From Limnomonas spitsbergensis (Eukaryota; Chlorophyta; Chlorophyceae; Chlamydomonadales), in assembly GCA_037349105.1 (NCBI GenBank), contig JAYJMM010000019.1, positions 2,787,501 through 2,851,500 on the forward strand: a DNA stretch of 64,000 bases, in the 5' to 3' direction. This document shows positions 1,616 through 64,000 of this stretch, in pieces. The position numbers were made by a program, and so were the translations under genes. Below the pieces are notes generated by a model. It saw only the letters and a list, made by a program, of their open reading frames with translations. It had not been told where the DNA came from and searched no databases. Position 1 is the stretch's first letter; the number at the start of each line of letters is the position of its first letter.

Positions 1616-4600
1616 ATGCTCATCGAACAGCTCGAGCAACTGGCATCCGAATTAGGTGGCCACGCTGAGGTAGGTGGCAGTGTTGTGCTTTCATGCTATA
1701 ATGCGATGTTTCTCATGAAACGGTGTCGAGGGAGATGACAATTCTCTTGTTACATCGCCATGCACTGTGAATGTTCCTCATCATGGTGAATGACACCGTA
1801 TGTACGCGCTCATCGATCGCCCTCATTCTGTTTTGTTATTGCGTTGGTGTTTCGCAGATTGGAATTGCAAGTCTCCTACATCCCTGCCTGGGGGACCGTG
1901 GCGTCGCCTTGTTGTGTCCTGCAATCGCACAGGTTGCACAGCGAGTTCGTGCGTCCTACTTGGAGGCACTGGCCATCGTCCTTGTCCCAGAGCTCAACAG
2001 GCAAGGCTCAGATTAAGGAAGGCCTCTCATCGAGACATGCGTGTGTCCTGTTGTTTATTGCACAAATTCGGGAGAAAGCCCTTTTTGCTGCCCTCCCTCC
2101 ACGGTCACCTAGCCCCATCTGAACCATCCCCAACAACTGGCCTTATAATAACATTTACCCCCTCATCCTATTTGAATGATGCCTACGCCTCAGTCGGCTC
2201 TGCCCTCCCTCCTTTGTCAATTGTCATCCCTTTGCCTGCTACAATGCATCGCCTGCATGACCACCTCGTTTCTCTGCCGAATAAAATTCAGCAGGCTTGC
2301 ATCCAGCGGTGGGAACGTGGTCCTCATTGGCGAAGACGATCGTCCCTCCTACCAGTGCTTGCCCTCGCCCCACCTCGCCCCTACCACCCCGGACTACTGC
2401 TTCGGAGGAGCTGGCAACACCTCGGCCACCTCATCGCCAATCTCCTCAAAACGCCACAGCCTTAACTGGCCCAACACCGCACAGCAACAGCAGCCCACGC
2501 CGAGCTCTTCGTCGCAAGATGTCAACGACACGTCCCTCGCGCCCGACGCCTCTAAAACCCTCGATGAGCGTGTCGATGCCACCTCTTCGCCACCGCTACC
2601 CCAGCAGCTGCAGCAGCAGCAGCAACTGCACGCCGAGCGCAAGAGCCTTGACCAAGGCCGCGAACCTGCGGATGCCCGCGATGGTGATGGCCCGGAAGGC
2701 CCGGTCGCCGGCAACCTCCTGGCAGACTTCTGCGGCTCCCTCAGCAGCATCTCAGCCCCCAACCCCGCCCTCAGCTCCCCTTTGATCCGGGCTGCCAGTG
2801 GTGAGTGCCGGGCGCCGCTTTAAAGCTTGCGGCCCTGCTGTCTGCTCCCCGCTTGCTGGCGCCAGCCCCCATGCGTCAGAAGCAGCCGTTCACGCTCACA
2901 GTGTAGATCTGACCAGTCTCAGGCCCCCAGCTGAAATGGGACCGACTCAGCACCCTAGATGACTGGACTTATCAACATGTCACTTGCCTCAAGAGTGTGC
3001 TGCCCTTGATGATGTGTCTGGGGCGCGGAAGACCCTGGGGCGTGGGTGAGGGAAAAGCCCTGGCCTTTCCTGCCCTTGTGGGCTTCAGCAGCGCATGTGT
3101 AGGCCCTACCTCAAGTGTATCACACTATCACATAGCATGGTACTGGTGCACATTGGACATGATTGCCTCGCCGATAGATCCCGAAACAGCATCGTGCTGT
3201 CACCCCTTCCCTAAGCACTCACTCTCTGGCAATTTAAAAAGGGAACCCGAGTCCCTTCTAGAATTTTCACAACATATTACTTTTCTCCACACTTCTTCAC
3301 ACTTGGGGTGTATATTTTGATGTATAAATATGACGTCTCTGCGAGTCATTCCAGAGGATCATGGGGCTGATACGATGCTGAGACTGCAGTACTGTAGATT
3401 TGCCTAGCCTTCCCTCATAATTAATGTTGTTTGGGGTCGAGGGATCCATGAACATACTAAGTAATGATTGTCGACGCCAGTTTTCAGTCAGAAATTAAGG
3501 TCGATAATTCGCCCTGAGGGCAGCACTACAAGAAATTGTGTTTTCATAACGGAGGGAAGGCAAATCAAATTTTCGGTACTCGGATGTCCCTGTGCCTGCA
3601 GGCCCATAAGGGCATGCCCCCTCACGGTAGCACACTCCGGCAAACCCTGTCCCGTTTTGTTCTGCATATTGCCGTATCGTGCAACCTTGGAAACGCGACT
3701 AACTAAAACCTGTACAGCGTCGTGTTGTACCGCGTTTTGTAATGCTGTATCGCGCAGCCTCAACCTCCTTCCTTTGGGCCACCCTTGAACCATCGAAACA
3801 AAGACATGCCGCTGAGCCCAGTAGCCCACACCCCTCTCCGGAGCCCACACCCCTTTCCGGTCAAACCATCAAAGAGTGCCACTGCTCCAACACCCTATCC
3901 CTTTCTCAGAAGGCGGAGTCGCACAGCTGGCAGCGGCCCAGGACCTTGACCGCCCCGTTCCTTGGCAGCAGCAGCAGCAGCAGGCTGGGGAACAGCAGCA
4001 GCAGCAACAACAGCAGCAGCCGCGGGAAGTTGACAGGCGTTCGACCGGCGATTTCCGCGGCCTGACCATCGCCAGCCCGATGCACCAGCAGCAGCTGCGC
4101 ATCTGCAGCAGCGTGCCGCGCTCCGCAGGCGGCGGCGCGGGAGCCGACCCATCCCAGGCGTCGTCGTCGTCGCCGTCGTCAGCTATGGCGGCACTCCAGC
4201 AACACATGATTCAGCAGGAGCAGCAGCTGCTCATGTCCTCCGGCGGCGGTGGTGGTGGCAGCGCGTACAGTCCGTCCTCCTTCCCGCACCACATATCGGG
4301 GGGGGGCGGTGGCGGCGGCGGCAGCGGCATGCTCAGCCCCTCACACCCGCACCACTTGTCCCCCACCAGCGGCGGCGGCGGCATGTTCGGTCAGACCAGC
4401 GAGCAGGACCTGGTGGCGGCGCTGCAGCAGAGCTTGCGCGACTACTCGGCGTCGCAGGCTGCCGGTGGCGGGCCGCCGCTGACTCAGCAGCAGCAGCAGG
4501 CGATGTACAACCAGCTGCAGCATCACGCAATGCAGTCGCAGCAGCAGGGCGGGCAATCGAACCAGTTCCGGTGAGAGGGCGGGTGACATGGGTAGGGGTG

Positions 4601-7600
4601 GACTGAGGCAGGCAATCAAACCAGTTCCGGTGAGGGCTGGTGACATGGCTAAACCCTTGACCCCAAACCCTTAACCCTAAACCAGGCGGGTTCTCGAACC
4701 AGTTCCGATGAGGGCTGGTGACATGGTTAGGGGCGGACTGCTGCTGAAGCACTGGGCAGCTTACTTGTTGAGGCCTACCACCGTGGCTTTGTGTGTGGGG
4801 GGCAGCTGTGTTGAAGCTTTATGGTGGTGACTGGTGAGGCTTGTGAAATATTTAGGGGTGGACCGAGGCTCGCGACCTGTGGCATAAGCACCTGGCACTT
4901 TGCTTATTGAGGCCTGCCACTGTATCTGTGTGTGTGTGTGTGGTGCAGCTTTTTTGAAGCTGAAGCACCCTGTATAAGCTCAATGGGTCTGCAGCCGGTG
5001 GCATAAGCACCTGGCCCTATGCTTATTGAGGCCTGCCACGGTAACTGGGAGGCTGTGATGCAGCTGCATTCAAGCTGAAGCACCCGACATAAGCTCAATG
5101 GTTATGCAGCTGGTGGCACAAGCACCTGTGGGGCCCATGCAGCACCTGGCCTCCCGCCTGATGGACATGCGCTGGTATGTAGCTAATTTTAGCTTGAACA
5201 CACTGTAAATACGTGCTTCAGCTACAATTCAGCTGCATCACAGCCTCCCGGGTACCCCCATAAAAGCAAAGCGTCCTCAGCTACCCCCTTAACATCACAC
5301 CAACCTTACGTTACACCCGCAGGTCTCTCCCTGGCACCCCCGCACGCCTGAACCAGCCTACAAGCCAGGGCGGCGGCGGTGGCAGTGGCGGCAATATGTT
5401 TTCACCGCCTGTACTGGATGCGCAGCAGGCGGCCGCCGTGGCCAGCCGCAATAGCAGCTTGCTGTCTGCGGCGCTCAGCCAGGTATGTTATAGGAATATA
5501 GGATCCTATTTTTGCCTAGCCAGGCATTTCCTCCCCCTGCGGCGCTCAGCCAGTTAGGGTATAGGATCCGGTTTTTGCCTAACCATGTAAAGTTTGTTTT
5601 CCTGCGGCGTTCAGCCAGTTAGGAATATAGGCTCCTATTTGGATGAGGTCCTGGACGTGAGAAACGGGCCTAAACATAATCTAGCCCGCTGTGGCGCCAG
5701 CCACCACAGCAGCTTGTTTTCTCGACGCCTAGCCAGGTACCGGGTCCTATATGGATGAGGTCCCATGGGAGAGGGAAGATTTTATGTCCATGGAGAGGCT
5801 GTTTGTAACTCTGGAACCTGACCTTGGGCTGATGTTTATTGCATTGTGTTTTAGGCGGGAGGATCGCGGCAGGAGACCGGTCTTAATTTTAGGGTTTAAG
5901 GAGCTTCATAGCTGCATCGAACCCCAGCTAGTGCCTAACCTACCGGCTGTCATGGCTGGAGCGCACCAACTCACAATATTAATGATTGCATGTAAGGCTA
6001 CCCCCTGCAAGTACATGCAGCATGCCCTGTCGCTTGGGCCTCTGGCCATGAGCCAGCCAAGTAAATCCAGCTTTGTAATTCGGAAAATAAAGAAGCTACT
6101 CCCTCCCTTGCCCCTTTATCCAGGTTTCAATACACGCTCAGCAGCAGCAGGGGCAGGGGCATCCTGGAGGGCTCATGCCGCGCAGAAGCTTGCCCGACTC
6201 GTTCGCGCTGCCTTTCGGCTACCCACCCAACCAGCCTCCACCGCAGCAGCAGCAGCAACAACAGCAACAAACTTCGCCGCGCGCCTCCGGGCCGCCCGGG
6301 AGCAAGCATGTGAGCCACCCGAGTTGTTCAGACTGGCTCAGCATGTCGTCCCCAACAGGGTCCTTGCTTGACCTCCAGGTAAGGGTTGGGTGGCGTTGCA
6401 GCGAGGTGTGCATACAGCGTCCCTGTCCCCTGGGCGGCCTGTTGACCTCCCCTCTCCTATTGAATACTCTCACCCAATGAAAACGCTTCACCTTATGAAC
6501 ACGCTTTAGCTTACTGTATGAATGTTTCCCACTTGTTGAACACACCCCACCCGTTCACATCATGAACCCGCTTCACTTGTTGAATTTTCTTCACCTGTGC
6601 GCTCCCTCCAGTGTCCGCAGGGAGTATACAGAGCCCCCGTCGTTGACTTCCCCTCTCGTGTTGAATGCCCTTCATCGTTGAATGCGCCTCACCTAATGGA
6701 AACGCTGCACGTTGTGAACACACCCAACCTGTTGCCCTTCACCTGTGCGCTCCCTCCAGTGTCCGCGGGGAGCATACAGAACCCCTCACCTAATGAAAAC
6801 GCTTTACTATATGAACACGCTTTAGCTTCCTGTATGAATGCCCCTCTCCTGTTGAACACACCCCACCTCTTGAAGACCCTCCACCAGGTATCTTAATCCA
6901 TGCCTCAGGGCGTATCGTTTCCCCCCCATTTATTTACACCCTTCACCTGTGCACTCCCTCTAGTGTCCGCAGGGAGCATACAGTGCCGTCGGCGGCCTAT
7001 CCAGCATCCCCTCAAGGCAGGACCTGGAGATGCTGCTCAGCATGCAGCCGGGCGGCGGCAGCGCCGGCGGGTCGGGCGGTGGCGGCGCCGGGCTGCCGAG
7101 CGCGTACGGCCCTGGCAGCCCCACGCATCAGCAGCAGATGCAGGCGGGCTCGCCGATGCTGGGTGGCTCTGGAGGCGGCGGCGGCAGCGGTGGCATGCTG
7201 GGTGCTGCTGGCGAGATGCCGCCGAGGTTCAAGGTGCTGCCGCTGGTGGTGACGCAGCGCATTGGGTCCCTGACGTCGACCAGCTGCGTGATATCCATCC
7301 GGGATTTTGACGATAAGGTAGGCAAAGGGTTTAGGGGATGAGGAGGAGCAGAGGTGAGGAAGGAGGCGTAATTTTTATCTGGGTCTCCCTCCGTGTCTGA
7401 GTCTCTCTCTGGTGATCAGGTGCCACACCTTGCATTTGAAGTCAAGCGATTAGGGACGTGAGCACGGTATGGGGGGGTTGCAGCAGGGGATCCTTTTGTT
7501 TTCCACCGATTCAGACCCCTGGCAAGACGGCATTGGAAAGCTGACATCCAGGGCTACACGCTGCCTTCATCTGAGGTGAAATCAGACCAGAATAGAGCAC

Positions 7601-10600
7601 CTCCTGCTATTAGGCCATCCCCCCCCCCGACCTCCTTTCGCCTTTCGCCTCACCTCCTGCCTGCAGATTGTGAGTAAGAGCGTTGACCGCTTTCACCCCT
7701 CCTGCTTTTTGGCCACTTCCTCCTTCCACCTCACTGGCTGCTTTATGGCCACCCCACCCCCTTCCTCCTTCTGCCTCACCTCCTGCCTGCAGGTTGTGAG
7801 TAAGATGGCATTGCTAGTCGATAGCTATGGTGTGGATGAGGCGATGGCCATGCTGTCACACCTTGAACACCGAATGCGCACCAAGCAGGTAAGGGCTGAT
7901 TTTGTGTTTGTGTCTCGGGTTTTTAGGTTTGGGCGGCCGGCCTCACACCTGGAACACCGAATGCGCACCAAGCAGGTAAGGAGCAGGAGGATGTGTAGGT
8001 ATTTGGCCATGTTTGGATTTCCTTGCTGCATGAACTTTGGCGCAGAATGTGCATCAAGCAGGTGAGGGGGGAGAGGATGTTTAGGTAAGTGGCACGCCCT
8101 GTTCTGTTGAGGGCCGTTGCTTGCTGGCTGGAGGAGAGATCGGGCGGGCCTGAAAATAGCACTGCTTGGTTCCCTTGCTTCTTTCTGAACGAAGAAGCTC
8201 TCAGGTGGTTGGCCCCTAGACAAAGCTGCGTGTCCAATGGAATAGACCTCTGCATTGCTTACCCTGTGCTGAGACTTGCATAGGCAGTACATGCTTGTAC
8301 CGTCTGACGTACCTCTATGTACGGCAATTGTACTACTTCTGTACCGCGCAGGGCGCCATGAAGAACGGGCCGGGCTACCTGGATGTGGCGGTGTCGTCTC
8401 ACTTGGACATGCTCAAGGTGAGGACGGGGATAGCGATTTGAGTCCAATTGTGTCACACATGAAATTGGGGGGGAGCTGCTTGTAGGGATAGTTGTGCTCG
8501 GTACTCTGGCCTAATGGCGGTGTTGCCTGATCTGGCTCAAGATCAGGACGGAGACAGAGCGCGTCACTTCAGGACTGGAATTTCACGGTGTCGCACACAT
8601 AATTTTGGGGTTGTAGACGCAGTGAGGGATGAGTGTGCACGGTGCTTTGGTCCTGTGTCGGCGTCCTCTCGATTAGGTACGTTCAAGGTCAGGACGGGGG
8701 CAGAGCATGCCATGTTAAGGATTGGCGGTCGATTCAGCCGCACATGACATTTGGGTTAGGCGCTTGGAGGGTGAATCTGGCGCTGCTAGTAGCATGCTCA
8801 AGGCCAGGACGAGAACAGAGCACGTCACTCAAAGGAGCGGAGGTGGATCTTGTCACACGTCAGGCTGGGGTTAAGGGTTCAGAGATGATTTGAGCTGGGT
8901 GTGGGTAAGAAAGTGAGAACATCAGAGAAGAAAGACAATTCTGAACTCTCTCTTAATCCCATTGTTGATACCCCTACCCCACTGCCCTCCCTCAGGCCCA
9001 GGGCTCATGTTCCAAATGACTACAACCTATGATGCGGTCGAAACACCCCCCAACACATTAACGTGATATCCTATCCTATTCATAGTGTGTTACCCTGACT
9101 TCCTCTATCCCTGACCCATTGCCCTTCCTCGAGGGCTCCTGTCCCTAACGTATGCAAGATAGGATATGGTATATAACAACAATCATATTAAGATCACATC
9201 CAAATTGTGCTACCCCGCCTGCCTGTATCCCTTCACCCAAATTCACCCAAATCAATCAAAACACCTGATCATAGTCATATCATATCCACATCGTGCCGCC
9301 CGGACTGCCTCTACTCCATGACCTGCAAATTTCCAGTTAAAAAGCAGGAGGTTTTACTCAAGTTCACAGCTTCCCCGTCTTAAGCATTATTTGTGATAAC
9401 CAGCTTTCACTGGAAGGTGGCATTTTAATTGGTTACCCCTCCCCCCTCAGGCCCAGGGCTCATGCCCCAAGAGCATGACCATTGAGGAGTATGCCTCGCA
9501 AGCCCTTGGGCCGGCTGTCTTCCATGAGCTTAGGGAGGCGGTGGCCAGCAACCGCTGGCTGGAGTGGCAGCACCTGGACCAGGTGCAGTGTTTATTTAGA
9601 ATGGCGACAAGGACGTGCCGTTGGCAGGCTGCCAAAGGCCTGATTGGAAGGCAAAAACGCCTCGACCAAACCTTGACCGACCTGTGGCCGGCGGTCCAGG
9701 CAGCATGGCTGGCCACACCTAGGGTCTATGGACGCAGGCTGGAGTGTAGCTGACATGTTGCTGAGCCGCAAAAAAAAAACGCTGACCCTGTGAAGGCTTT
9801 GCCGAGGGGGGTGGAGAAGGAGGGCTTTGGGGAGAGGCAGGGTCAGGCTTCAGGTCCTTGTTAACGATTCTCCAGTTGTTGGACTTCAGGTCCTAGTCAA
9901 GGCTTCACATGTTACGGTTTTCACATTGTATAGGCCTCTCAGATCGTGAATCACGACCTTCAGAGATGTTACAGCCGATCGGCGACCAAAGATTTTCAGA
10001 GGACAAGAGAAATGCCGAAAGCCCTTGCCTGCAAAAAAAGGGTGACTGCAGCCTATGGCCGCAGGTCATCGACGGCGGAAGGCCGAATCCTGGGCGGTTT
10101 GGCCCTAGAGTCTTTGAAGATATCATGACTCGCGATCATGTGTTGCCTTGTCTACTCAGTGCCTCCCTTGGCTGTTGAACCATTGTTTCCACGTCCTTGA
10201 AGCTCATGGACCCGGTGAAGCCCCAACCAGTGATCCCCCAGCATGAGCCCCAGCCATGAGCCCTGAACCTGAACCCAGAACTTCCACTTCACCTGAAGCT
10301 TGAAATGTTTGTTTTGTAACCCTGAACCCTTAACCTTACCCTGAAGAAGCTCCAACTAGTGAGCTCCCAACCCTGACCCCCTAGCCATGAGACTTCAACC
10401 CGAACCCTGAAACTTCAATTAGTACTGAAGCTTGCACATGGTTCCCACAACCCTGAAGCTTTCAGTTTTACTGAAGCTTGAACTTACACTGAAGCTTGAA
10501 CCTGTGATGAAGCTTGAACATGGTTTCCACATCCCTAAGACTCTGAGGCCCAAGCAATGAGCTCTACACCCTGAGCCCCGAGCCATGAGCCCGCAACTCA

Positions 10601-12000: not shown

Positions 12001-12109
12001 GTAATTGTACCGGCCTTTTGTTTGGAGGCTGCTCAGTGTTGACCAATTTCCCCCACGGGAGGAGCGGGACTGCCTGGGGCACTCCCCTGCCCTCCGAACC
12101 ATTGGATTG

Positions 12110-12380
12110 GGTCAGACCCACACTGCCGAGCCTTTTTGAGCAGGGCCCAGAGGTGGTACGTCATTGGATAGTGTCAGACTTAACCCGGTAAATCCTGAGG
12201 GGTGCAGCGGCCGGGAGCAGGAACCACTCTGGATACATGATGGGACTGTTGGGCGCCTACGCGGCCGAGCCTTTTTAAGCAGGGCCCAGAGGTGTAACGT
12301 CATTGGATTGTGTCAGACCTAACCCGGTAAATCTTGAGGGAAGCAGCGGCAGGGGGCAAGAACCACTCTGGATACATGTA
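12110..12380 (+). repeat. Dispersed core repeat, tandem pair of ~136-bp units
   Basis: Both units contain ggccgagcctttttgagcag (second copy has ttttaagcag), then ggcccagaggtg, cgtcattgga, gtgtcagac, taacccggtaaatc and gaaccactctggatacatg. The core also recurs elsewhere in the window on both strands. Confidence 0.85.
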
Positions 12381-13060: not shown

Positions 13061-13064
13061 CATG

Positions 13065-13910: not shown

Positions 13911-14147
13911 TGTCCCGTTGGAAGAAAAGGAAATAACTTAAGGGAAGAGGTAAAGGAATGTGGGTGCAGGGCGATAACGTAACACCGTGGAATTTACCAG
14001 AGACATAATGATGACCTCGTGAACAGGGTGTTGACAAAGCGCGCTGCCAACAAATGGCTAAAAGCTGGAATGGTGAGCTAACAAAAACTGGTGCTTCAAA
14101 CTGTTGGGCTGGATTTTAATCACATATAGGGTGATGCAGGTGATGAC

Positions 14148-15255: not shown

Positions 15256-15282
15256 ATATACGTTTTCAGAGGCTGGAACTTC

Positions 15283-16520: not shown

Positions 16521-16524
16521 GGGG

Positions 16525-18635: not shown

Positions 18636-18639
18636 GACC

Positions 18640-19970: not shown

Positions 19971-22900
19971 ATGTTCCCCGGTGGCTATCCTCATCCGCAC
20001 CACGCCTCTGGCTACGTCCAGGGCATGGGCTACGTGCATGCCCAACCCGCGCCGTTCTACGGCGACTCGGTCCAGATCCCTTCGAGCCTTCCGTTCTACC
20101 CGCCCCCGCAGCTCCAGCCTCCTCCCTATGGCGGGTACCTCCCAGTCCCCTACCGCGACGTCGGACCCTCTCCCCACATGGAGGCAGCCCCATGGTTCAA
20201 CCCCTCGAACGGGGTGCCTATGATGGGCCACCTACCCTACCACGGCCCCATGCAGCCTGCCATGCCAGCTCCCCACCATCAACCGCAGTGGCAGCCGACA
20301 ACGCCCAGCGGCATGCACATGGGACCCGAGGCAGAATACCCCGATGACGGGGCCGACGGCTACTATGACGAAGAGGGCACTTACTACGAAGACAGTACCG
20401 AAGCCTATCCGGAGGAGGGAGCGTACCCTGAAGACGATGCTTATCCCGAACAGAATGCTCCTTACCACGAGGGAGGCGCCTACACTCACGACGGCGCTTA
20501 CGCGACAGAGGGAACCTACTCCAATGAGGGTGCACATGCCGAAGACGGTACCTACTTTGCTGCTGATTCAGACTCTTACTCGCAGCACCAGCAGCAGCAG
20601 CAGCGCCAGCAAGCGTCAAAAAAGGCGCTCGCGATCGTGGCCCCGCCATCCCGTGGGACTGGCAGGGTGGTAGGATGGGCCGCTTCCCCGGCCGCCGCCT
20701 CCGATTCAAATGTCGCCGCTGCCTCCTTCGCCGCTGCTGCTTCCAGCTCAGCGGCCCTGGCGGCCATTCAGGTTGGCGCAGGCACTCGCACGATGGAGGA
20801 ACAGCTGATGAGCCGCGCCATGCTGGAGGCCATGACCAGGTGTGAAACGGTATGAAAACATTTTCCTAAATCCTTAACGGCACCATGGGGGAGTACCTTA
20901 TGAGCCGCGCCATGCTGGAGGCCATGACCAGGTGTGAAACGGTATGAACACATTTTCCTAAATCCTTAACGGCACCATGGGGGAGTACCTTATGAGCCGC
21001 GCCATGCTGGAGGCCATGACCAGGTGTGAAACGGTATGAACACATTTTCCTAAATCCTTAACGGCACCATGGGGGAGTACCTTATGAGCCGCGCCATGCT
21101 GGAGGCCATGATCAGGTGTGAAACGGTATGAACACATTTTCCTAAATCCTTAACGGCACCATGGGGGAGTACTTTATGAGCCGCGCCATGCTGGAGGCCA
21201 TGACCAGGTGTGAAACGGTATGAACACATTTTCCTAAATCCTTAACGGCACCATGGGGGAGTACCTTATGAGCCGCGCCATGCTGGAGGCCATGACCAGG
21301 TGTGAAACGGTATGAACACATTTTCCTAAATCCCCAACGGCATCATGGGGGAGCAGCTTATGAGCCGCGCCATGCTGGAAGCAATGTACAGGTGTGAAGC
21401 GGTGTGAACCCCCAACGCTCGACCCAGTAAATTTGTAACAAAACCCCTAAATCCTATACGGCACTAAAGAGGAACAGCTGATGAGCCACGCCATGCTGGA
21501 GGCTATGACCAGGTGTGAAGCGGTGTGAACCCCTAACCCTCGACCCTGTAGATTTGTAACGAAAACCCTAAATCCTGTACAGCACTGGAGGATCAGCTTG
21601 TGAGTCGTGCCATGCTGGAGGCCATGATCAGGTGTGAAATGGTATGAACACATTGTCCTAAATCCCCAACGGCATCATGGGGGAGCAGCTTATGAGCTGC
21701 GCCATGCTGGAAGCAATGTACAGGTGTGAAACGGTGTGGACCCTCAAGGATCAACCCTAAACTTTGCTCCTTGGGGGGTCAGCTTAAGAGCCATGCCATG
21801 CAGCCATGCTGGATGCCATGTCAAGGTGTGAAATGGTATGAACCCTTACCCCTATATCCTACTTGTTTTGAAAAACTACCTTAAACCCTGAACGGCACAT
21901 TGTAGGAGCACATCATGAGGAGAAACAGCCATCCTTGAGCTAAACACCAGGTGTGAAATGGTGTGAACCCCTAACCCTTAAAATCCTAAAGACCACCATG
22001 GGGGCACAGCTGATGTCCCGCACAATGCTGGAGGTGATGACTAGGTGTGAAACGGTGTGAACCCTTTGCCCTAAATCCTGAGCAGTACAATGGAGGAGCG
22101 GCTGATGAGCTATGCCACGCTGTTGGCTCTGAACATTTGACTGCATGACCTCCTGACCTTTCCTGTCCTCCACCTCCCCTGCCCCCCTCTTGTCCCCCCC
22201 CCCCCCCATCTCCCTTCAGCCTCGCTCCCACTTGTTTCATGGCTCAAGTTCAGAGACTCTTCTCCACCCCTAACTCCACCTGCTTAAACTTCACCTCCTC
22301 TGCCCCCCTCTGCCCCTCCCTATCAGCCTCGCTTCCTCATGGATCGTGATACTCAAGTTCAGAGGCCCCTCCACCCCTATCTGAACCTCCTTGGCCTCCT
22401 CCTTTCCCTTCTTTACTTCCCCACCCGCCCCTCCCATTCCGCCTCCCTGCAGCCGCGCTCCTACCTAAATCGTGGTACTCAAGTTCAGCGCTTCCACCCC
22501 TAACTTGACCTCCTTGGCCTCCTCCTCCTCCTCCCTCCTCCTCTTCTACCCCCCCCTCCTGCTCCTCCTCCTCTACCTCCCACCCCCCTGAACCTCCTTC
22601 TATGCCTCCCATCCCCTGAACCTCCTCCGCTACCTCCCCCCCCCTGAACCTCCTCCGCACCCCCCTCTCACCCCTTGCAGTCTCGCTCCCACATGGATCG
22701 TGATTCTCAAGTTCAGCGGTATTGACTCGACCCAGGTGGTCCTGACCTCTGAGGAGCTCCTTCGCCAGCATGCCCAGCACCGCCTACAGGTCCAGACGCT
22801 GCTGGTCGGTGTCAAGGGCAAGGGGGCGGGGCCGAGGGGCCTGTTGTCAGCAGCCTTCTTCAGGTAAGCAGGGGCAATGTAGGAAAGGGCATGCCCAGCA

Positions 22901-48100: not shown

Positions 48101-51100
48101 CAGGCCCTGATGCGGGCGGCTCCAGAACCCAGGAGTGGTCATCAACGTCCTCCAGGCAGGCCCACAGATCCTGGTAAAGATGCAGCGCCTGCCATGCGGA
48201 GGATTTTTGACTTCAGGGTACAGGGTTGAGGGTTTAGGGATAATGGTGAAGGGCTCAGGGTCTACCCAGTGCCCAGGCATGCAGGTCATGGAAGTCCTCC
48301 AGACAGAACCAGAGATTCTGGTATAGGTGCAGCGCCTGCCAAGCGGAGAATTTGGGACTGCAGAGTTCAGGGTTTAGGGTTCATGGTCAAGAGCTCAGGG
48401 TCCACCCAGTGCCCGAGAGTTGCCGTCAAAGTCCTACAGACAGGAATAAAGATCCTGGTAGAGGTGTAGCGACTGTCATGCGGAGGATTTCGGGCTTCAG
48501 AGTTCAGGGTTCAAAGTTTATGATGAATGGGCTTATAGGGTCCACCCGAGAGAACGGCCATTAAACTCCTCTAGACAGAACCAAAGACCCTGTCAGGCGG
48601 AGGATTACAGGCTTCAGGGTTTAGGGATAATGGTCAAGGGTTTATAGGGTCTACTCGAGAGATAGGTCATACCATTCCTCCAAGCTGGAACAGAGGTCTT
48701 GGTAAAGGCAAAGCACCTGCCACGCAGGATTTCAGAATTCATACTTCAGAATTCAGGGTTCAGGGTTCAGGGATAATGGCCAAGGCTCAGGGTCTACTTA
48801 GTACCCAGGAGTTGCCGTCAAAGTCCAGACAAACACACAGATATTGGTACAGGCTAAGCGCCGGCCATGCTTTGGATTCCAGATTCTTAGTTCAGGGTTC
48901 AGAGTCTGCCTCAGTACCCAGAAGTTGCCGTCAAAGTCCTTGAGGCAGAAACAGAGATCCTGGTAGAGGTGCAGCGCTTGACATGCGAAGGATGTCATAC
49001 TTCAGAGTTCAGGGTTAAGGGTTTTGGGATAATGGTGAAGGGCTTTTAGGGTCTACCCGGGGACGCAGGTCATAAAAGTCCTCCAAGCAGGTCCGGTTAG
49101 AGGTGCAGCACTTCCCGAGCGGAGGATTCCGGACTTCTCAGTTCAGGGTTACGGTCAAGGGATAGTGGTGAAGGGCTCAGGGGCTACCCAGTGCACATAT
49201 CCGGGTACAGGTGAAGTGCCTGCCACAGAGGACTTGGAACTGCAGAGTTCAGGGTTTAGGGATAATGATGAAGGGCGCAGGGTCTGCCCAGTACCCAGGG
49301 GTTACCGTCAAAGTCCTACAGACAGGACCAGAGATCCTGGTAAAGGTAAGGCGCCAGCCGGGCGGAGGATTTCGGACTTCTTAGTTCAAGGTTCATGGAG
49401 AAGGAACTACCCAGGAATGCAGGTCATGAAAGTCTCCTCCTGACAGTCCTGGTAGAAGTGAAGCGCCTGCCACCGAGGATTTTGTACTTCACAATTCAGA
49501 GTTCAGGGTCAAAGATGAAGGGCTTATAGGGTCCACCCGGGGACGCAGGTCATACCATTCCTCCAAGCTGGAACAGAGGTCCTGGTTAAGGCGAAGTGCC
49601 TGTCATGCGGAAGATTGCATACTTTGGGGTTCAGGGTTCAGGGTTAATGATGAAGGGCTTATAGGGTCTAGGACGAAGGGTTCCAGGACTAAGGGTTCCA
49701 GGACTAAGGGTTCCAGAACGAAGGGTTCCAGGACTAAGGGTTCCAGGACTAAGGGTTCCAGGACTAAGGGTTCCAGGACTAAGGGTTCCAGGAATAAGGG
49801 TTCCAGGACTAAGGGTTCCAGGACTAAGGGTTCCAGGAATAAGGGTTCCAGGACTAAGGGTTCCAGGACTAAGGGTTCCAGGAATAAGGGTTCCAGGACT
49901 AAGGGTTCCAGGACTAAGGGTTCCAGGAATAAGGGTTCCAGGAATAAGGGTTCCAGGAATAAGGGTTCCAGGACTAAGGGTTCCAGGAATAAGGGTTCCA
50001 GGAATAAGGGTTCCAGGAATAAGGGTTACAGGACTAAGGGTTATCTTGGTACATGTGAAGCGCCTGTCACAGAGTATATACGGTTTGGGTTTAGGTTTCA
50101 AGATTTGAGGTTTGGGGTTTTTTCTATTGCCCCTCTGATCTTCACATCCACATATTTATTCAATGCCACCATCAGCAGGACCGCAGCAGACTGCCCCTCC
50201 CCCTCACCTGCCTCCCCCATATACTGTGAACCCCTTCCACTTGCCCCCCTCTACTCTTTACCTCCTCAAACTGCTTCAGTACAACCATCATCAGATACTG
50301 CCCCCCCCCCCCCCCCCCACACCACCACCACCACCATTTCTCCTCTCCACCTCCTCAAACTGCCTCTCCTATCCCCCCCCTCCCCTCTCTCCCTGCGCCC
50401 CCCTGCCCCTCTCTCCTATCCCCCCTGCCCCCCTCTCCTATCCCCCCCCTTCCCTCTCTCCCTGCGCCCCCCTGCCCCCCTGCCCCCCTGCCCCTCTCCT
50501 ATCCCCCCCCTCCCCTCTCTCCCTGCGCCCCCCTCCCCTCTCTCCCTGCGCCCCCCTGCCCCCCCTCCCCCCCACCACCATTTCTCCTCTTCACCTCCTC
50601 CAACTGCCTCAGCGCCGCTATCAGTAGATCCCACCACAGCCTGCCCCTCCCCCGCTGCCTCTCCCTGACCCCCTTCTCCCCCCACCTGTCTCCCCCCTAA
50701 AAACCTCCCCCTCTCTGATCCCTCCACCCTTGCCCTCTCCCTCCCACCCTCTCCTCTTCACCTCCTCAAACTGCTTCAGTGCCACCATCAGCCTGTCGCA
50801 GCCCGCCCCCCCCCCCCCTGCCATGCATCAGTCTCTGCGAGCTGGGCAGCAGGTACGGCTGTGATGACCTCCAGCCTTCCTGCCCCGCTCCCTCCTCCCC
50901 TGCCTCCACACTAAACCCATCCCCACCCGCCCCTCTTCACCTCCTCAAACTGCTTAAGTGCCACCATCAGCCCATCCCGTCGCAGCCCGCCCCCTCCTCT
51001 GCCATGCATCGGCCGTTGCAGCTGGGAGCTGGGCAGCTGGTACGGCTGTGATGACCTCCAGCCTCCCCGCCCCGCTCCTTCCTCTGCCTCCTGCCACCCA

Positions 51101-54100
51101 CGCCCAGCAGCCGCGGCGGCAGCTGCGGCATCGAGGCTGAACGGCAGCGGGAGTTCCGGAGCACAGGCCAGCGCGGGCGGCGTGATAGGGAAGCTGGGCG
51201 GAAGGTGCAGGGCCAGCTTGTGGATCCTGCCGCCAGTGTCTATTGCCTGGAGAACCACACGGGAGCAGTCCTGAGGGGAGCGGGTGGGGGACAAGGAAGG
51301 GGGGGGGTACAGGTAAGGTCTTTGGGAGAACCAAACGGGAGCAGTCCTGAGGGGAGCGGGTGGGGGACAAGGTAGGGGTGGGGGTCTAGTAAGGTCTTGG
51401 GGGGACCACACGGGAGCAGTCCTGAGGGGAACAGGTCAGGAGGGGAACAAGGTGGGGGTGGGGGTCTGGCAAGGTCTTGGGGGAAACACGCGGGAGCAAA
51501 CCTGAGGGGAACAGGTGGGGAGGGGGACAAGGTGGGGGTGGGGGTCTGGTAAGGTCTTGGGGGGACCACGCGGTAGCAAACCTGAGGGGAGCAGGTGGGG
51601 GTCAAGGTAGGGGAGGGGGACTGGTAAGGTCTTGGGGGGACCACACGGGAGCAGACCTGAGGGGAGCGGGTGGGGGACAAGGTGGGTGGGGGGACCACAC
51701 GGGAGCAGACCTGAGGGGAGCGGGTGGGGGACAAGGTGGGTGGGGGGACCACACGGGAGCAGACCTGAGGGGAGCGGGTGGGGGACAAGGTGGGGGTGGG
51801 GGACCACACGGGAGCAGACCTGAGGGGAACAGGTGGGGGACAGGTGAGGAGGGGGGCTGGTAAGGTCTTGGGGGGCAGGACAGAGGGGGGCAATGTAGAG
51901 GGCAAAGGGAGGGGGGACAGAGGGCGAAAAGGGATAACTGGGTGAGGAATTACACTACCTCACACAGATATGTGGAATCAGACTGCCTTACATTGTAATT
52001 GGGGTGTGGCTGTCCTTTTAGTGTGAGCACATCAACACTCAATGCCTTTTCGAAAGAGCCAGACAGAGCGACCTGGGAGGGAATGCATGCGGAAAGGCCA
52101 AAGAGGAAGAACTGGCCCAGATCCCAATGTCCAGGTAGAGCCAGGACCGAATGAGGAGACAGGTGAGGGATAAGACGAACAAGGAATCACTTTACAACGA
52201 ATGAAGAAACGCCAAAGAAAAATGGAAAAAGGCCTGAGCCCCACAGCCCAGGGAGAGCCCAGACCAAATAAGGAGACGGCTGAGGTATGCGCTAGAAAAG
52301 GGTCACTTGCAGATGCATGTGGAAAGGCCGAAAGAAGGTTTTGGATATCAGCCGGGACCCCTGAGCCCAGGAAGAGCTGAAACCGAATAAGGAGACAGGC
52401 CTGGTCAGAGTCTATGAAGGGGCACATTGAAAGGGTGTGTGTATGGGGGGGGGGAGTTTGAGCAGCCGGTGGCAAGCTCTGTCACTTGTAAACGCAAAGG
52501 CGTGTCAAACTGAATCCTCTATTTCAGAGAGCAAGGGAGCAGGTAACACCAGCAGCGTCCGCCAGGCTAACCAGCATTCTAGGGTTTAAGGTTTAGGGTT
52601 AAGGGTTAGGGTTTAGGGTTTCAGTGCACACACAAGATAACTTTTGACAGGCTGCTGGACATGGCCACTACTGGGCTGATGGTGACCAAACCTTGCCTGG
52701 CCTTCGGCTGGCGGCCCAAGCAACAAGCACCTTGCTGCACCAGTCGCCATCGGCAATCGAGAATCGTAAAGCTGAAGTGTAGATGAAGTGCACTTAACAA
52801 TACAGACCCCCCCCTGGAAGCTCTGATCCCTCGGGGTTCATGGTTTAGCGGAACCCTTACAGAGAAACCCCTAAAACACTGAACCCATATCATAACCCTT
52901 GAAGCCACTGATCCCCAAGCCCTAAGACCATACCGCACAAGCAGCGTTGACACCTCAGCACATATCATTGCCCGATGGGAGGGGGCGCCGCGCAACTTTG
53001 CAAACATGCAAACAATTGATCATCCCCTCCCTCCCATTCCTTCCCTTCCCATCGCACATTACATGTGGCAAACCTCGCCCCACTAAAGCTTTAACCCTAA
53101 GCCCTGTTCCTGAGCATTTCATGGCGACCATCTGGCCACTTCAACCCTAACCCTTGAACCCTTACCCCTAGCACTACGTAGCCCTTACCCTTACCTCCTG
53201 ACACCTTTACCTTTTACAGTGAAACCCACACCCTCTAACGCTACTGAGCCCCGTATTGATCCTTTAACCTTAGCCCCCAGACCTTACCTCTTTATCGCTA
53301 CTTCACCTCATACCCTTAGTCCCTGACCATTGAAACCCACGCCGTACCCCTTACCCTCTAACGCCTCTCAATTTCTTACTCTTACACCCTGACCCTTATA
53401 CCCTGACCCCCAACCCTTACCCTTAGACTTTGACCCTGACCCACCGGCCCTTCAGCTCTAACTCTACTTAACACCTAACCCTGGCCCTGCACCCTGGGCA
53501 TTGCATCTGGCCACCATATCGCCACTATACAGCAAGCCCTGGACCCCAAGTCCCCCCCTTGGCACTACAAGAGGAGCAGTTGATAATAAACAGCAGGCCC
53601 TAAACCCCAAGTCCCCCCCCCCTGACAATTCAAGGGGAGCACTGCCTACCTGAGATAGCTCCGAGACATGGTCCCAGCCCAGCCTGTCCAGCTCCGAGAC
53701 CACTGCACGGCAGAATTCGGCACTCGGAGGCGCTCGGGCCTGCCTGAGCAGCACACCCAAGTTGTGGGCCTCACGATTCAGGTTCCAATACCACAGGGTT
53801 CATGGTTCATGGTTTGGGGTTCAGGTTTCTAGGTTCATGGTTTATGGTTTATGGTTCATGGTTCCTGGTTTGGGGTTCAGGTTTCTAGGTTCATGATTTA
53901 TGGTTCATGGTTCCTGGAGCTCCTCAATCTGCTCCTGGAGCTCCCGACCCCCTTTTCCCGCTGCTCCCACTCCCAATCCACCATTACCCACGAGGGCCCA
54001 CATTCCTCGTGCTCAGGTGTCCAGACCCACCTTTCACGCAGGACCTCCTCAATCAGCTCCTGGAGCTCCTCAATCAGCGCTTCAGGGGAGGGGCACCTGC

Positions 54101-58657: not shown

Positions 58658-59329
58658 GACATCGATGGCAGAATACGGCTGGAATGAGCCTCGAAGGATG
58701 CAAGGTTGCAAAGCGATAGGCGCTGTCCTGTTCCTCGCCCCCTAAGGTGCTGGGCGCATTTCAAGGCAGGGGTTCAAACTGGTAGTTCAAACGCAAGGTG
58801 GGTGGGCTGGCTGGCCAATAACCGTACAAAATGGATCAAGATGGCATTACGGATTTATGGTAAGAATTGGCGAAAGCTAGTGCATGTGCAATTCGGGGAA
58901 TTTTTTTTTGAGCTAGTCGCGTGGCCAAAGTGGCTGGACGCGTCGCTTCTATGTTGCACTTAGGTGCATGTCTCAGTCAGCCAGTCAGGGCTCGCGAGCT
59001 CGGGGATAATCAATCCACGAAAGGGGCATGAAAGATCTCTGGCATGGATCTGCAGCCAGACCAACCTCAGATCTGGAGTGGGAAGCAGGGTGGGAAGTGT
59101 GGAGGTTGTCGAGAGCGTGGTACCTGCCATTTCTGATGCCAGCCAGTCAAAGCTTCGAACTCGCTGTTTTGCGACCGATTTTCGTAAACTTCATTGCATC
59201 TTATAGCATAGTTGGACAAGCGTGAGGCCAAACCTCCCAGGAGTCCGAGGTGCAAGCTGCCCTCAGCTCCGGTCATCCCAGGGATAGCTCTACAGGCTCT
59301 GATCATTCGAAATAGTTGGTACTCGAAGT
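58658..59329. promoter_or_regulatory. Head-to-head intergenic region between FANCL and the kelch gene
   Basis: FANCL starts leftward at 58657, and the first kelch exon recognised starts at about 59330. No other gene is supported; short ORFs here lack motifs. The arrangement allows a shared bidirectional promoter, but an undetected first exon of the kelch gene could also lie here. Confidence 0.4.
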
Positions 59330-62300
59330 ATGCACTGGATTCCATGTGGATCACAGCAGGGCGCCGAGAGTCCGCTTAGCCGCTTCGGACACTCCGCCGT
59401 GCGCGTCGACGCCCGCGACGTCTGGGGCACCGAGCTGGTTGTCATATTCGGTGGCGTCATCCATTCCCACTCCCAGCCCAGCAACGCATCCGCCTCGCAG
59501 CAGGAGCCCGCAGCAATTGACCCCCATGCAGCGCTGGCAGACGTGCATGTGCTGCAGGTGGAGTCAGATTCCTGGTTCAAACCGGCCTTCCCCCCGGAGC
59601 AGGAAGGGGCAGATAACACGCCCTCCCCGGAGCCTCGGGCATTCCACTGCGCCGCAGCTGCAGGTCACAAGATGTACGTGTTTGGAGGCCATGTGCTTCA
59701 CTTTGATGCGGAGCACAACAAGAAGCGGCGAATTTTCTTCTCCGACCTGTGGAGCCTCGATATTGTGAGGCCCATGCACTGTAGATATGCTGTCACAAGA
59801 GCAATGCATGCAGATTGCAGACGTAGTCATGCAATCAATCAGCTTTATTATACTGTGACCTGTGGAGCATCGGTATTGTGAGACCATGCAGTGTAGACAT
59901 GCTAACACAAGAGCAATGCATGCCGATTGCAGACGTACCCATGCAATCAATCAGATATCATTTTCTGACCTGTGGAGGCTCGGTATTGTACCGGCCCATG
60001 CAGTGTAGACGTGCTAACACAAGAGCAATGCATGCAGACGTAGCCATGCAGTCAATCAGATATTATTCTCTGGCCCGTGGAGGCTCGGTATTGTGAGGCC
60101 CATGCACTGTAGACATGCTAGCACTATGCATGCAGATTCAGCCATGCAATCAATCAGATTTTTTCTCTTGCCTGGAGAGCCTGGATATTGTGATATTCAT
60201 GCATGCAGTCGCTGCCATGCAAACTGGTTTTGTGGAAGCAGATGTATCCATGCAATTTAGAGCCATGCATGCAGATGTATCCTTGCAATTTAGAGCCTTG
60301 CAATCAGATATGGCCATACCATGGGGGCCATGCAACCAGATATAGCAATGCAATGAGATCCATGCAATCAGATATAAGCAGATAGCCGTGCAGCCGGCGC
60401 CATGCGCGCAGATGTCGCCATCTAGCCAGACATGTGGGTATAGCCCTGCATCCAGAGCCATGCCAGCATGCAGAGAATGCATGCATGGCCATGCATGGGA
60501 TGTTGCCGTGCAGTCAGAGCATTTCAAGTGGATGCGCTCGTGCATGCTTTTGCAGGTGCACCCTTGTGAGTGGGTCGGTGCACGCAGATGTAGCCATGCA
60601 ATTGGAGCCATGCACGGCATGCAAGTACTTTCAATTCGAATTTGGGGGCATCATGAGGCAGGCTGGGTAGTGGGGAATAGATGTGGCGGCATGCACATAC
60701 ATGCGTGCAGCAGGGTCCTGGGGGGCCTTATGATAATCGTAGGATCAAACCGACCCCTCCCTTTTTTTGTTCGTTGGCTTCCGCCGACCAGGTGTTATCT
60801 TTTGGTCGGTGTCTTGATGTCGGAATTTCTGGGGACATTGCAGCATTACACATGGAGACGTAGAAATGCGTTGAGGGCCATGCAGGTAGAAGCACTTTTG
60901 CATGGTAGTACAGATGTATCCTTGTGGAGGGGTCCATGCATGCACATGGATGTTTGGCATCTGATCTGATCCACACCCATGCCCTGCTCCTTATGCCTTG
61001 CCCCTCATGCCCTGCTCCTTATGCCCTTCTCCTTATGCCCCTCCTGATGCCCCTCCTCCTTTGCTCCTGATGACCCTCCTCCTTATGCTCCTCATGCCCT
61101 GCTGCTCCTGCCCTTCATGCCTTGTTGCTCCAGGAGACTTGGGGCTGGTGTCGTGAGTGGTCCCTACATCAACAGGAGGGACCTTGCAGGCGCGACATGG
61201 CCACCCTCACGCACGTTGGGGGAGACCAGCTCCTGCTGTTCGGCGGGCGCAACGAAGCTGGTCGGGCGGTGGGGGACTTGTGGTTGTTTGACCTGAAGAG
61301 GTGGGATTCATTTGAATTCAATAAGGGAATTGAAATTAAAAATTATTTTGGGGGCGTCACGAGCTGGCCGGGCGGCGGGGGACTTGTGGTTGCTAGACCT
61401 GAAGAGGTGGGATGACTTTGACAGGGAATTAAAAAGTATAAGTAATTGAGGGCGTCACGAGGCTGGCTGCTTGGTGTGGGATAGATGTGGCTGTTAGACC
61501 TGCAGGAGTGAGAGGGATTTGACGGGGAATGATTTTTAAATTGAACTTGAGGGTGTTGCAAGGCGGGCTGGGCCATGTTGACTCAGCTGCAGCCTCCCTC
61601 GCTGGTGCCCTGCCTTCGGAAAGTGTGGAATGTCTACTAGTTCACACTGTTAACGCTTTCATTTTGGCCTGAGACTGGTGTAGACACAGTCAAAGACCCC
61701 TGCGCCAGTGCCCTTCCCTCGCAAAGTGTAGAATGTCTACTAGTTCACACTGTCCTTACACTATTTTTCCTGCAGGCTGGTGTGGACTCAGCTAAAGCCC
61801 CCCTCGCCTGCACCCTGCCCTCGCAAGATGCATGCCGTCGTGTATGTGAGTGTGGAGAGTGTGGATTTCGTCGTGGGAGTGTGGAGGGTGTGACCGCCGT
61901 GGGGCAGGTGTACATGGTATGAACGCTGTTGCGTAGGTCATTGTGGAGTGTTTGAACGGATGGAACGATTTCACGTTTGTGTGGAGTGTATGAACGGAAT
62001 CTGCCCAATGCAAAATACGACAAATATGAAGTACGGCATGAGTTTGTAGAGTACAGCAAACTTTGCATTAGAATCGTTCGGTAAAGGCTTGACTATTATT
62101 ATAATCGCAATAAAACCTTATATTAGAAGTGTGGGTTCCCACTGATTAAGATTTCGAAGGGCTGCACAAGAGGCGGTGCAGATTAAGAAGTCATGTTACG
62201 AATGAAGGGTGCAATGACGACAATAGGCAGAATCAGGCAGAAACCCTAAACTGTTAACCCTAAACCCTAAACCCTGAACACTGAACCCCCTCGCATGCGA

Positions 62301-64000
62301 CAGGATTCAGGGTGGTGCATGAACGATCTAACGATGAGTACCGTATTCCTTTTTTGGCTTCGCACTCGCTTTTATTGTTGCAAAGTTTAACCACTTTTTC
62401 GAAAGGGCCAGGTGGAGCGAACCGGAGGCAACGTTAGGTTTTGATACCCTAGTAAAGCGGAAGGCACCCTTGTGATACCATTATTATTATATCGTTGATG
62501 TTTGCACAAAGGCTAGAGGTTCAAACATGCACACTTGCTGGGGCTGAGGCTTGAACGGGGGCCTGCGTGTTCACACTTGTTCATACAAATGACTGGAAAA
62601 GACAAACAATTCATGCGCCTTTGTCCAGACCATGTCCTCACATTCTACAGTCTTCTTCACAGTCCCTCCACACTGCCTGCTTTTGTATGATCTGGTTCAC
62701 ACTTGTTCATACTCTAAATCTGGAAGGTATGCATCTTCGCCCTATCCTCGTATCTTGCTGTCTCCCTCACAATGCCCCCCCACCCCTGTACTGACTGCTG
62801 TCTCCCTCACAATGCCCCCCCACCCCTGTACTGACTGCTGTCTCCCTCACAATGTCCCGCCACCCCTGTACTGACTGCTGTCTCCCTCACAATGCCCCCC
62901 CTACCCCTGTACTGACTGCTGTCTCCCTCACAATGCCCCCCCCACCCCTGTACTGACTGCTGTCTCCCTCACAATGCCCCCCCTACCCCTGTACTGACTG
63001 CTGTCTCCCTCACAATGCCCCCCCACCCCTGTACTGACTGCTTTGGTATGATGTGGTTCACAATGAACATGCAATGCCGTTGGTTAAGCACGTGCTCTGA
63101 TTTGAATGGTTCAGGTGGGCGGCGGCCGGCTGCTGCTGGTGGTTGGCACATGTGTTGTGGCTGATTCACTGCTCAATGCCGTGTAGGTGGGCGGCGGCCG
63201 GCTGCTGCCTGTGGCTGGCAAACGTGCTTTGGCTGATGGTACAAATGTCGTTGTTCAGGAACGTGTTCTGTTCAAATGGGTGTAGGTGGGCGGTGGCCGG
63301 CTGCTGCTGGTGGGTGGTGAGCGTGACGTCGGCGCGCTGGATGACCTTTGGAGCCTGAAAGGCCTGGATGGCGCTGAGCCTGTGAGGTGGGTTCATGGAG
63401 AGGAGGGTGAGAGGTGTGGTCGCGGCGCTGAGCTTGTGAAGTGGGTGTGGAGAGGAGCCTGAAAGGCCTGGATGGCGCTGAGCCTGTGAGGTGGGTGGGT
63501 GGAAATGAGGGCGCAAGGGCGGGAGTTGCATGGTAGCACGATACGGCATGATACGGCGCAATACGGCATAGGTTCAGCCGGATTGTACTACCAAATTGCC
63601 ACGATACGGCATGATACGGCACAGGTTCAGCCGGATTTTGCTACCATGGGGAGTTGTGGTCGTAGGCTGATCCTGTGAGGCAGGTGTGTGGAGAGGAGAG
63701 CGGGAGTTGTGGTCGCAGTGCTGCACCTGGGAGGTGGGTGTGTGGAGAGGAGGGTGAGAGATATGGTATCTGTGTAGCTGGACCCAGGTCAGGCTGTGCC
63801 CCGACCCCTCTGCCGCAAACATATACCGGTCCGCGTTTGTGTTCTGAATTGCTCACTGGGAGAAACACTGCTCCTGGCTCTGGTGGACTCAAGTCAGGCT
63901 GCGCCCTGCCCCCTCTGCCACAAACATGTGATCGACTGGTTTTCAGGGGAGGTGGGGCACTCTCCTGTGCAGGTGGACCTAGGTCTGGCTGCGCCCCGCC
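59330..64000 (+). CDS. Kelch-repeat protein, 5' part (continues past the window)
   Basis: Exons: about 59330-59764, 61134-61300, 61776-61845, 63286-63386; the next is at or beyond the window end. Phases agree (0, 2, 0, 2). Kelch blades are visible as RFGHSAVRV ... TELVVIFGG, PRAFHCAAAAGHKMYVFGGH ... FFSDLWSLD, ATLTHVGGDQLLLFGGRNEA ... GDLWLFDLKRLVWTQLKPP, and CPRKMHAVVYVGGGRLLLVG ... DDLWSLKGL. Paired glycines before the loop and the DLW-x-L/F-D strand recur at kelch spacing, implying a beta-propeller. Such propellers are protein-interaction modules; the partner and any N- or C-terminal domain are not visible. The start is uncertain: ATG 59330 is the first in-frame ATG, but an acceptor near 59356 (atcacag-cagggcgcc) and an upstream exon are possible. 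Confidence 0.8.
59765..60200 (+). repeat. Donor-side array of kelch exon 1 (four copies, ~105 bp)
   Basis: The exon ends gacctgtggagcctcgatat-t before gtgaggcccatgcac. Copies: 59858-59890 (cctgtggagcatcggtattg-tgag), 59969-60000, 60073-60108 and 60168-60195. gcaatgcatgcaga words separate them. Confidence 0.92.
60201..60960. repeat. Degenerate catgcaatcagat-type repeats in kelch intron 1
   Basis: Short words of the form gccatgcaatcagatata and atgcatgcagatgtagccat recur dozens of times without a fixed period. No coding signal. Confidence 0.7.
60975..61133 (+). repeat. Expanded pyrimidine tract before the kelch exon-2 acceptor
   Basis: tgccctgctccttatgccc-like units of about 18 bp are repeated about eight times directly upstream of the acceptor (gctccag at 61133), so the polypyrimidine tract itself has been multiplied. 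Confidence 0.8.
61301..61775 (+). repeat. Junction copies on both sides of kelch intron 2
   Basis: Donor side: the exon end ggggacttgtggttgtttga, cctgaagag-gtggga is copied at 61375-61412 and, more diverged, at 61475-61515. Acceptor side: the exon start ctggtgtggactcagctaaa, gcccccctcgcc is copied at about 61567-61620 and 61672-61735. Confidence 0.92.
62755..63035 (+). repeat. ~43-bp array in kelch intron 3 (six to seven copies)
   Basis: Units of ctgctgtctccctcacaatg, a C run, acccctgtactga. The first and last units join tgatctggttcacac/tgatgtggttcacaa words. Confidence 0.93.
63108..63285 (+). repeat. Acceptor-side copies of kelch exon 4
   Basis: gtgggcggcggccggctgct plus g-tggt follows caG at 63113 and taG at 63185 before the true site at 63286. 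Spacing is 73-100 bp. The copies diverge after about 30 exon bases. Confidence 0.92.
63387..63760 (+). repeat. Donor-side copies of kelch exon 4
   Basis: The exon end gcctggatggcgctgagcct-gtgag before gtgggtt is copied at 63425-63445, 63458-63500 (longest, gagcctgaaaggcctggatg), 63662-63690 and 63720-63745. A (acgatacggcatgat) duplication lies at 63536-63620. Confidence 0.88.
63760..64000 (+). repeat. Acceptor-side copies of the next kelch exon
   Basis: ctggacccaggtcaggctgt, gccccgacccctctgcc occurs after gtgtag at 63777, and again at about 63880 and 63970. The 63970 copy has an in-frame TAG, so it is probably not the working exon, which would then be 63778 or beyond the window. Confidence 0.8.

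Follow-up and report, generated by a model that had tools for sequence, protein, structure and literature searches.

The stretch of DNA analyzed here (the window) is 64,000 nucleotides long and lies at C19:2787501-2851500 in the 260,226,709-base, 124-contig genome of the snow alga Limnomonas spitsbergensis, and it contains exon edges on both strands that are copied, often in tandem, into their own introns. The genome paper reports 260,248,090 bp in 124 contigs, a GC content of 54.15%, and a mean intron length of 788 bp for an assembly of polished PacBio continuous long reads (CLR), annotated from RNA-seq and Iso-Seq data (PMC11228838). Among nine window open reading frames compared with Pfam, one matched Kelch-type families and eight matched no family. 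For the Kelch gene (59.3-63.4 kb), the joined translation over three introns matched one Kelch profile (E 3.6e-20, residues 4-116 of 124), and its edges are the only ones in the window backed by homology, independently of the arrays. The joined exon translation of a second plus-strand gene (gene A) had no homologue at E <= 10, and a weak GYF domain match in it (E 0.028) was rejected, being below the cut-off. An Rfam scan gave nothing at gathering scores.

Exon edges in the window and their copies

Junction copies were sought with probes of 40 exon plus 40 intron bases aligned to the remainder of the same intron, with the identical probe run against other introns, or against the reverse complement, as the control. 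Seventeen edges, drawn from two plus-strand genes, were probed in this way. Eight more were picked by eye for a visible array and so cannot serve as a frequency estimate (six on the plus strand, at 5.4-8.1 kb and 29 kb, and two on the minus strand, at 50.9-51.9 kb). Clear junction copies were present in the adjoining intron at 21 of the 25 edges, on both strands (Table 1). Copies that included exon sequence were found at 13 of the 17 probed edges, with scores of 38-140 against a best control score of 31, and spanning copies were seen at all 8 by-eye edges. As for the other probed edges, 25633 had a weak copy (score 31; 11 exon bp and 7 intron bp), 34093 (score 75) and 61134 (score 31) had copies of the intron side only, and 61845 had no junction copy in the adjoining intron with the 80-bp probe. 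Six of the 17 probes lay 1-2 bases off the exact GT or AG; exact sites, later used for 14 of the 17 edges, gave spanning copies at the same edges as the first probes.

In the Kelch gene, clear copies occurred at 4 of the 6 homology-supported edges and also at the next donor, 63386, just beyond the profile match. The single-frame Kelch match continues 24 residues beyond the donor at 59764, so this donor is not fixed by homology alone. One intron of the gene also holds a counter-example, a 40-bp array of seven units (window 62756-63042) that touches no exon edge.

The length of the tandem unit varied from edge to edge, and the 92-, 143-, and 49-bp units matched the genome at their home arrays only, bar two weak partial matches (73-75%) of the 49-bp unit on contig C99, in a search that covered three units of many, scored few candidates, and skipped very common words, so that copies can be missed. 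The junction-copy observation is confirmed: the earlier note on this DNA had described copied junctions on both strands with a unit length peculiar to each edge, and both features were seen across the window. Its further statements, that each array derives from its own locus and that the arrays are not a transposon family, hold for the arrays examined and for the three units searched genome-wide, respectively.

Table 1. Copied exon edges in the window (positions in window coordinates)
Feature	Positions	Strand	How the edge was obtained
Gene 1 donor after 5482, three diverged downstream copies (5537-5585, 5602-5640, 5698-5739)	5443..5739	+	chosen by eye
Gene 1 acceptor at 6964, two upstream copies (6589-6635, 6735-6779)	6589..7003	+	chosen by eye
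Gene 1 acceptor at 7793, one upstream copy (7627-7679)	7627..7832	+	chosen by eye
Gene 1 donor after 7888, two downstream copies (7943-7981, 8045-8068)	7849..8068	+	chosen by eye
Gene A donor after 20839, 92-bp unit x6.5 (20808-21409) and older 121-bp copies; 12 spanning copies	20800..22140	+	junction probe
Gene A acceptor at 22681, three older upstream copies	22220..22720	+	junction probe
Gene A donor after 22863, 121-bp unit x2, 96% identical	22768..23004	+	junction probe
Gene A acceptor at 23883, 150-bp array upstream, five spanning copies	23363..23921	+	junction probe
Gene A donor after 23978, five spanning copies downstream, 100-bp unit	23940..24463	+	junction probe
Gene A acceptor at 25336, one spanning upstream copy	25040..25375	+	junction probe
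Gene A acceptor at 29042, 143-bp unit x9 (27639-28948) and older copies; 12 spanning copies	27280..29081	+	chosen by eye
Gene A donor after 29244, five diverged copies	29205..29849	+	chosen by eye
35-bp x27 array with its start exactly at the GT of the donor after 34093; copies free of exon bases	34094..35063	+	junction probe
49-bp x60 acceptor array that runs up to exon start 38522; exon part of the copies only about 8 bases	35612..38561	+	junction probe
Donor near 38620, 106-bp array downstream (38800-39458)	38580..39458	+	junction probe
Donor at 50941, two copies (50743-50793, 50586-50632)	50586..50980	-	chosen by eye
Acceptor at 51270, eight spanning copies (array 51254-51856)	51231..51856	-	chosen by eye
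Kelch gene donor after 59764, three spanning copies, 112-bp unit	59725..60193	+	junction probe
Kelch gene donor after 61300, one spanning copy, plus a second, more diverged, recognized by eye	61261..61560	+	junction probe
Kelch gene acceptor at 61776, one spanning copy, 103-bp unit	61576..61826	+	junction probe
Kelch gene acceptor at 63286, two spanning upstream copies	63112..63325	+	junction probe
Kelch gene donor after 63386, downstream copies	63347..63752	+	junction probe

Elsewhere in the window, the plus strand at 1-939 carries an open frame, cut by the window edge, that by eye resembles a retroelement integrase fused to a PHD-finger-like segment.

Chaperonin and kinesin genes beyond the window

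Exons of chaperonin (CCT/Cpn60) genes were located with Pfam PF00118, which gave 11 genes on 10 contigs with 57 introns and 114 junctions. Splice sites were set from the reading frame, the profile position, and GT/AG, and in two paralog pairs also from conserved exon blocks and peptides. Four unreliable intron calls (C62-0, C62-4, C61-1, and C4-0) were excluded before counting, and exon pairs with a missing exon between them were left out unless a paralog resolved them. The donor of C106 intron 4 was placed at 5960 in the final coordinates by comparison with human CCT4. An earlier donor for this intron gave 36 copied junctions, where the final one gives 35, and still underlies the figures below on repeat offsets, decoys, breakpoints, repeat coverage, similarity with distance, and donor and acceptor contexts. 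Intron 4 of C106 (L026) is nearly all one repeat cluster with a shortest unit of 86 bp (older donor), and in intron 0 of this gene, just 75 bp long, no repeats were detected.

A copy within the same intron (score >= 30) was found at 35 of the 114 junctions (22 spanning, 4 exon side only, and 9 intron side only), as against 19 of 5168 control comparisons with mismatched introns and 1 of 114 on the reverse complement. A copied exon edge was present in 22 of the 57 introns, or in 17 of 40 or 12 of 40 when one member of each paralog pair was removed, and longer introns had one more often: below 250 bp the count was 3 of 11, at 250-500 bp 4 of 17, at 500-800 bp 7 of 14, and at 800 bp or more 8 of 15 (15 of 29 introns of at least 500 bp vs 7 of 28 shorter ones). 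By gene, introns with a copied edge numbered 8 of 9 in C39, 3 of 3 in C62, 3 of 9 in C99, 2 of 3 in C106, 2 of 8 in each of C36 and C119, 1 of 3 in C37b, and 1 of 4 in C37a, and none in C22 (0/1), C4 (0/4), or C61 (0/5).

Kinesins (PF00225) were sampled thinly, with three loci and 10 usable introns from 12 exon pairs (K124a-0 and K28-1 were dropped as unresolved). Spanning copies of an exon edge occurred in 2 of the 10 introns, and all three repeat clusters found reach an exon. Intron 3 of kinesin K124a (L030) is the clearest single case of junction copying: the end of the exon and the donor after 2061, which is of the GC type (TTGCAG/GCAAGT on the gene strand), form an 89-bp unit with eight further copies, seven matching the whole 80-bp probe and one shorter (40 exon and 27 intron bp). 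The homologous kinesin 15 kb away has a GT donor there with no copy at it (score 14); the acceptor of that intron does have a copy, a more diverged one (score 46).

Junction copying is frequent in the genes sampled and rarer in the small set of kinesins, and it is not the rule that the earlier note had proposed. The pattern does occur far outside the window, in the chaperonin genes, and the note's suggestion of intron lengthening is supported by their longer introns, which more commonly have copied edges.

Age and turnover of the copies

Closely similar gene pairs of chaperonins and kinesins were present in the sample (L024/L025, L028/L029, and L030/L031), and in both chaperonin pairs exon blocks are common to the two members and introns align little. 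This pattern, with fourfold-site distances of 0.76 for C99/C39 and 0.41 for C36/C119, suggests an old duplication of the gene or of a segment. Where paralogous exons differ, the copies carried the base of their own gene at 106 of 156 positions, that of the other gene at 29, and neither at 21, in a count where copies within one array are not independent. As the copies mostly match the exon of their own paralog, most are younger than the split or have been homogenized; two C99 copies (introns 1 and 4), which show no preference for their own exon, may be older. Likeness to the true edge dropped with distance in 10 of 12 arrays of at least three copies (median rho -0.65), and the same junction was copied in both paralogs at intron 7 of C36/C119 and intron 6 of C99/C39.

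Decoy splice sites

Spanning copies bring additional splice sites into the intron, and 158 of them were scored, 64 in chaperonin genes and 94 in the window (60 from one array). The GT or AG was kept in 141 of the 158, compared with 125 expected from other adjacent positions; since the centers of alignments are favored, we read this as a lack of purging and not as preservation. Purging of decoy GT/AG was looked for in these 158 copies and was not seen, and the decoy sites that the earlier note had foreseen do persist intact. When only the best copy per chaperonin edge was taken, the dinucleotide was kept in 17 of 24, and intact chaperonin acceptor decoys numbered 15 of 23, against 16.3 expected. 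In 21 of the 24 best chaperonin copies, splicing at the inner site would cause a frame shift or introduce a stop; judged from reading frames, the outermost copy is therefore probably the one that is spliced.

Blind duplication and selection as a probable source of longer introns

We consider it likely, with a probability of about 0.7, that blind short tandem duplication together with selection acts as a ratchet that lengthens these introns. In this scheme, short tandem duplications of about 60-160 bp would arise widely across the genome, and those within an exon would harm the protein and be lost. A duplication across a splice site would be tolerated because the copy adjoining the exon remains functional: splicing would use the first donor or the last acceptor, and the extra copies, each a piece of exon with a splice site, would turn into intron. 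Repeats of this process, with array expansion and decay by point mutation, would yield a longer intron filled with copies of its own edges of different ages, and the exon edge, kept intact by selection, would stay recognizable as the parent of later copies. The analysis establishes the copies themselves, their position and tie to the home intron, the differences between paralogs, the excess at exon edges, and the unpurged decoys; that mutation is blind to the junction and that selection serves as the filter, with the outermost copy being spliced, we infer.

Several results bear on the scheme through the size and placement of the units. For the 39 direct-repeat clusters touching chaperonin introns, the shortest offset between repeats was 61-164 bp (median 108), apart from a single value of 317, and no cluster lay wholly inside a flanking exon (0 vs 39 touching introns, with up to 100 bp on each side examined). 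Across 27 spanning edges, the exon share of the unit was 0.06-0.71 (mean 0.39), with none above 0.71, and the intron part (offset minus exon part) was at least 22 bp at acceptors (18 edges) and at least 59 bp at donors (9 edges). Such a minimum would be what selection leaves if the outermost site must keep its own signals, for example the pyrimidine tract at an acceptor. Direct-repeat coverage was 0.29 in the chaperonin introns and 0.34 in 154 kb including the window (164 kb minus its terminal satellite-rich 10 kb), and local inverted repeats were about 10 times scarcer than direct ones (3.2% vs 33.9%). That the introns do not exceed this stretch speaks against a process confined to introns; as the stretch contains genes, the comparison shows only that introns are no richer than their surroundings at large. 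The terminal block (L018, C19:2941501-2951500) is satellite-like, with 86% of its 10 kb made up of a tandem array with units of 20-250 bp.

A number of observations weigh against purely blind duplication. Among the 39 clusters, 27 ran into an exon, compared with 12.4 expected under uniform placement (P < 1e-5), and 33 were at or within 20 bp of an edge, compared with 16.3 expected (P < 1e-5); for pairs of at least 88% identity, 14 of 21 spanned an edge vs 6.8 expected. Position-blind duplication combined with exon conservation was also simulated, and the output was put through the detection used for the real introns. Across twelve settings, 37-56% of clusters spanned an edge and 46-65% lay at or close to one, single replicates reaching at most 65% spanning; these values fall below the observed 69% and 85%, and the simulations have free parameters. 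The distribution of exon shares was not uniform (KS p 0.018), and repeat coverage was only 0.13 in the first 19 kb of the window. The 154-kb stretch, which contains genes with such introns, is no clean intergenic control, and the overall sample beside the window is one gene family (chaperonins) plus the 10 kinesin introns.

The excess of edge-spanning clusters held with one paralog per pair removed (19 of 25, P 1e-5, or 15 of 24, P 6e-4). Two ordinary effects lead to such an excess: ancestral introns that were short, and the conservation of the exon copy, which makes a repeat easier to detect and accounts for part of what was observed. Six of the twelve settings had a repeat coverage of 0.25-0.35, near the observed 0.29, and among nine earlier settings eight gave 26-56% spanning and one, at a coverage of 0.80, reached 80% spanning and 84% near an edge. 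The spanning levels reached in simulation indicate that much of the pattern follows from blind duplication plus selection, with a residue unexplained, and an additional edge bias in duplication is possible but unproven. The process tied to splice junctions that the earlier note had called for is accordingly not needed for much of the edge enrichment, nor do the repeat contents of introns and surroundings speak for it.

Alternative explanations

That residue is what favors a junction-biased process, in which transcription or splicing itself would raise the rate of duplication at exon edges (e.g., through R-loops or breaks at stalled junctions) and splicing would drive intron growth. The copying of some junctions in both paralogs, even though most copies look younger than the split, and the low coverage in the first 19 kb relative to the overall value also fit it. 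On the other hand, the distance from breakpoint to splice site varies widely, as the range of exon shares indicates, introns are no richer in repeats than the whole 154 kb, and part of the edge excess is detection bias; all three kinesin clusters touch edges, but their number is small (n=3). We regard such a bias as unlikely. The fuller proposition, that splice junctions are hot spots of tandem duplication, that splicing or transcription drives intron growth, and that the spliceosome selects the outermost one among many equal sites, guided by position (exon definition) and not by site sequence, seems to us rather doubtful.

The copies might instead be functional alternative or recursive splice sites kept by selection, for which the surplus of intact GT/AG is soft evidence given that the middle of an alignment is favored; the frame shifts and stops that inner sites would cause, the differences in copies between paralogs, and the absence of over-preservation among chaperonin acceptor decoys make this quite improbable. 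An assembly artefact, with long-read sequence collapsed or spuriously repeated, comes to mind for a polished CLR assembly, as the genome paper describes it (PMC11228838), but copies carry substitutions that range from fresh to highly diverged, and the same junctions are copied in both paralogs, so we hold this to be very improbable. Tandem arrays with splice signals at many introns also recall mobile introner-like elements inserted at splice sites. Spanning units contain exon sequence of their own host, unit lengths differ between edges, and the units searched genome-wide are private to their loci apart from the partial matches of one, which leaves such elements with hardly any likelihood; for the 92-, 143-, and 49-bp units they were rejected, no same sequence family being found in introns of other genes. 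Birth of introns by AGGT duplication, to which the earlier note had linked the arrays, is likewise unsupported: within an intron, the donor context is no copy of the acceptor context, and the best mismatched score (27) was exceeded in 1 of 63 introns, namely C106 intron 4 with its older donor.

Comparison with known systems

Unusually long introns without a short-intron peak have been reported for related algae, Chlamydomonas and the core-Reinhardtinia, and the report describes the advantage of length as unknown and leaves open the underlying mechanism, which is expected to be ancient (PMC8226300). Blind junction duplication under selection would offer a simple route to long introns, and in L. 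spitsbergensis the intermediates are still visible as arrays of fresh and decaying junction copies, which makes intron lengthening directly testable. The same arrays also confront the spliceosome, in natural genes, with a choice among several similar donors or acceptors (about 60 in one case), and thereby offer a clean system to weigh exon definition against the strength of sites.

Gain of introns by tandem duplication is accepted as a mechanism (PMC3443670, PMC4974935), and we did not find a description of recurrent intron lengthening through junction-spanning copies in the titles and opening abstract lines of the open-licence papers searched; the accessible part of the L. spitsbergensis genome paper (PMC11228838) makes no mention of junction arrays. 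As in intron gain by tandem duplication, local duplication here supplies splice signals without a mobile element, but there a new intron is born between two exon copies, whereas here existing introns are enlarged and their donor and acceptor contexts are not mutual copies. In the potato RdRp gene, the duplicated stretch also crosses an intron-exon boundary (PMC4974935), in a single event that produced a new intron, in contrast to the recurrent copying in many genes, mainly with lengthening, seen here. Introners and introner-like elements share with our case that many introns are altered by one type of process; here no common element was found, and the spanning units come from their own locus. 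Finally, intronic minisatellites are likewise tandem arrays within introns, but in L. spitsbergensis the unit is often not confined to the intron (the other 12 of the 39 chaperonin clusters do not run into an exon) and includes the exon edge and splice site, which places decoy sites in series.

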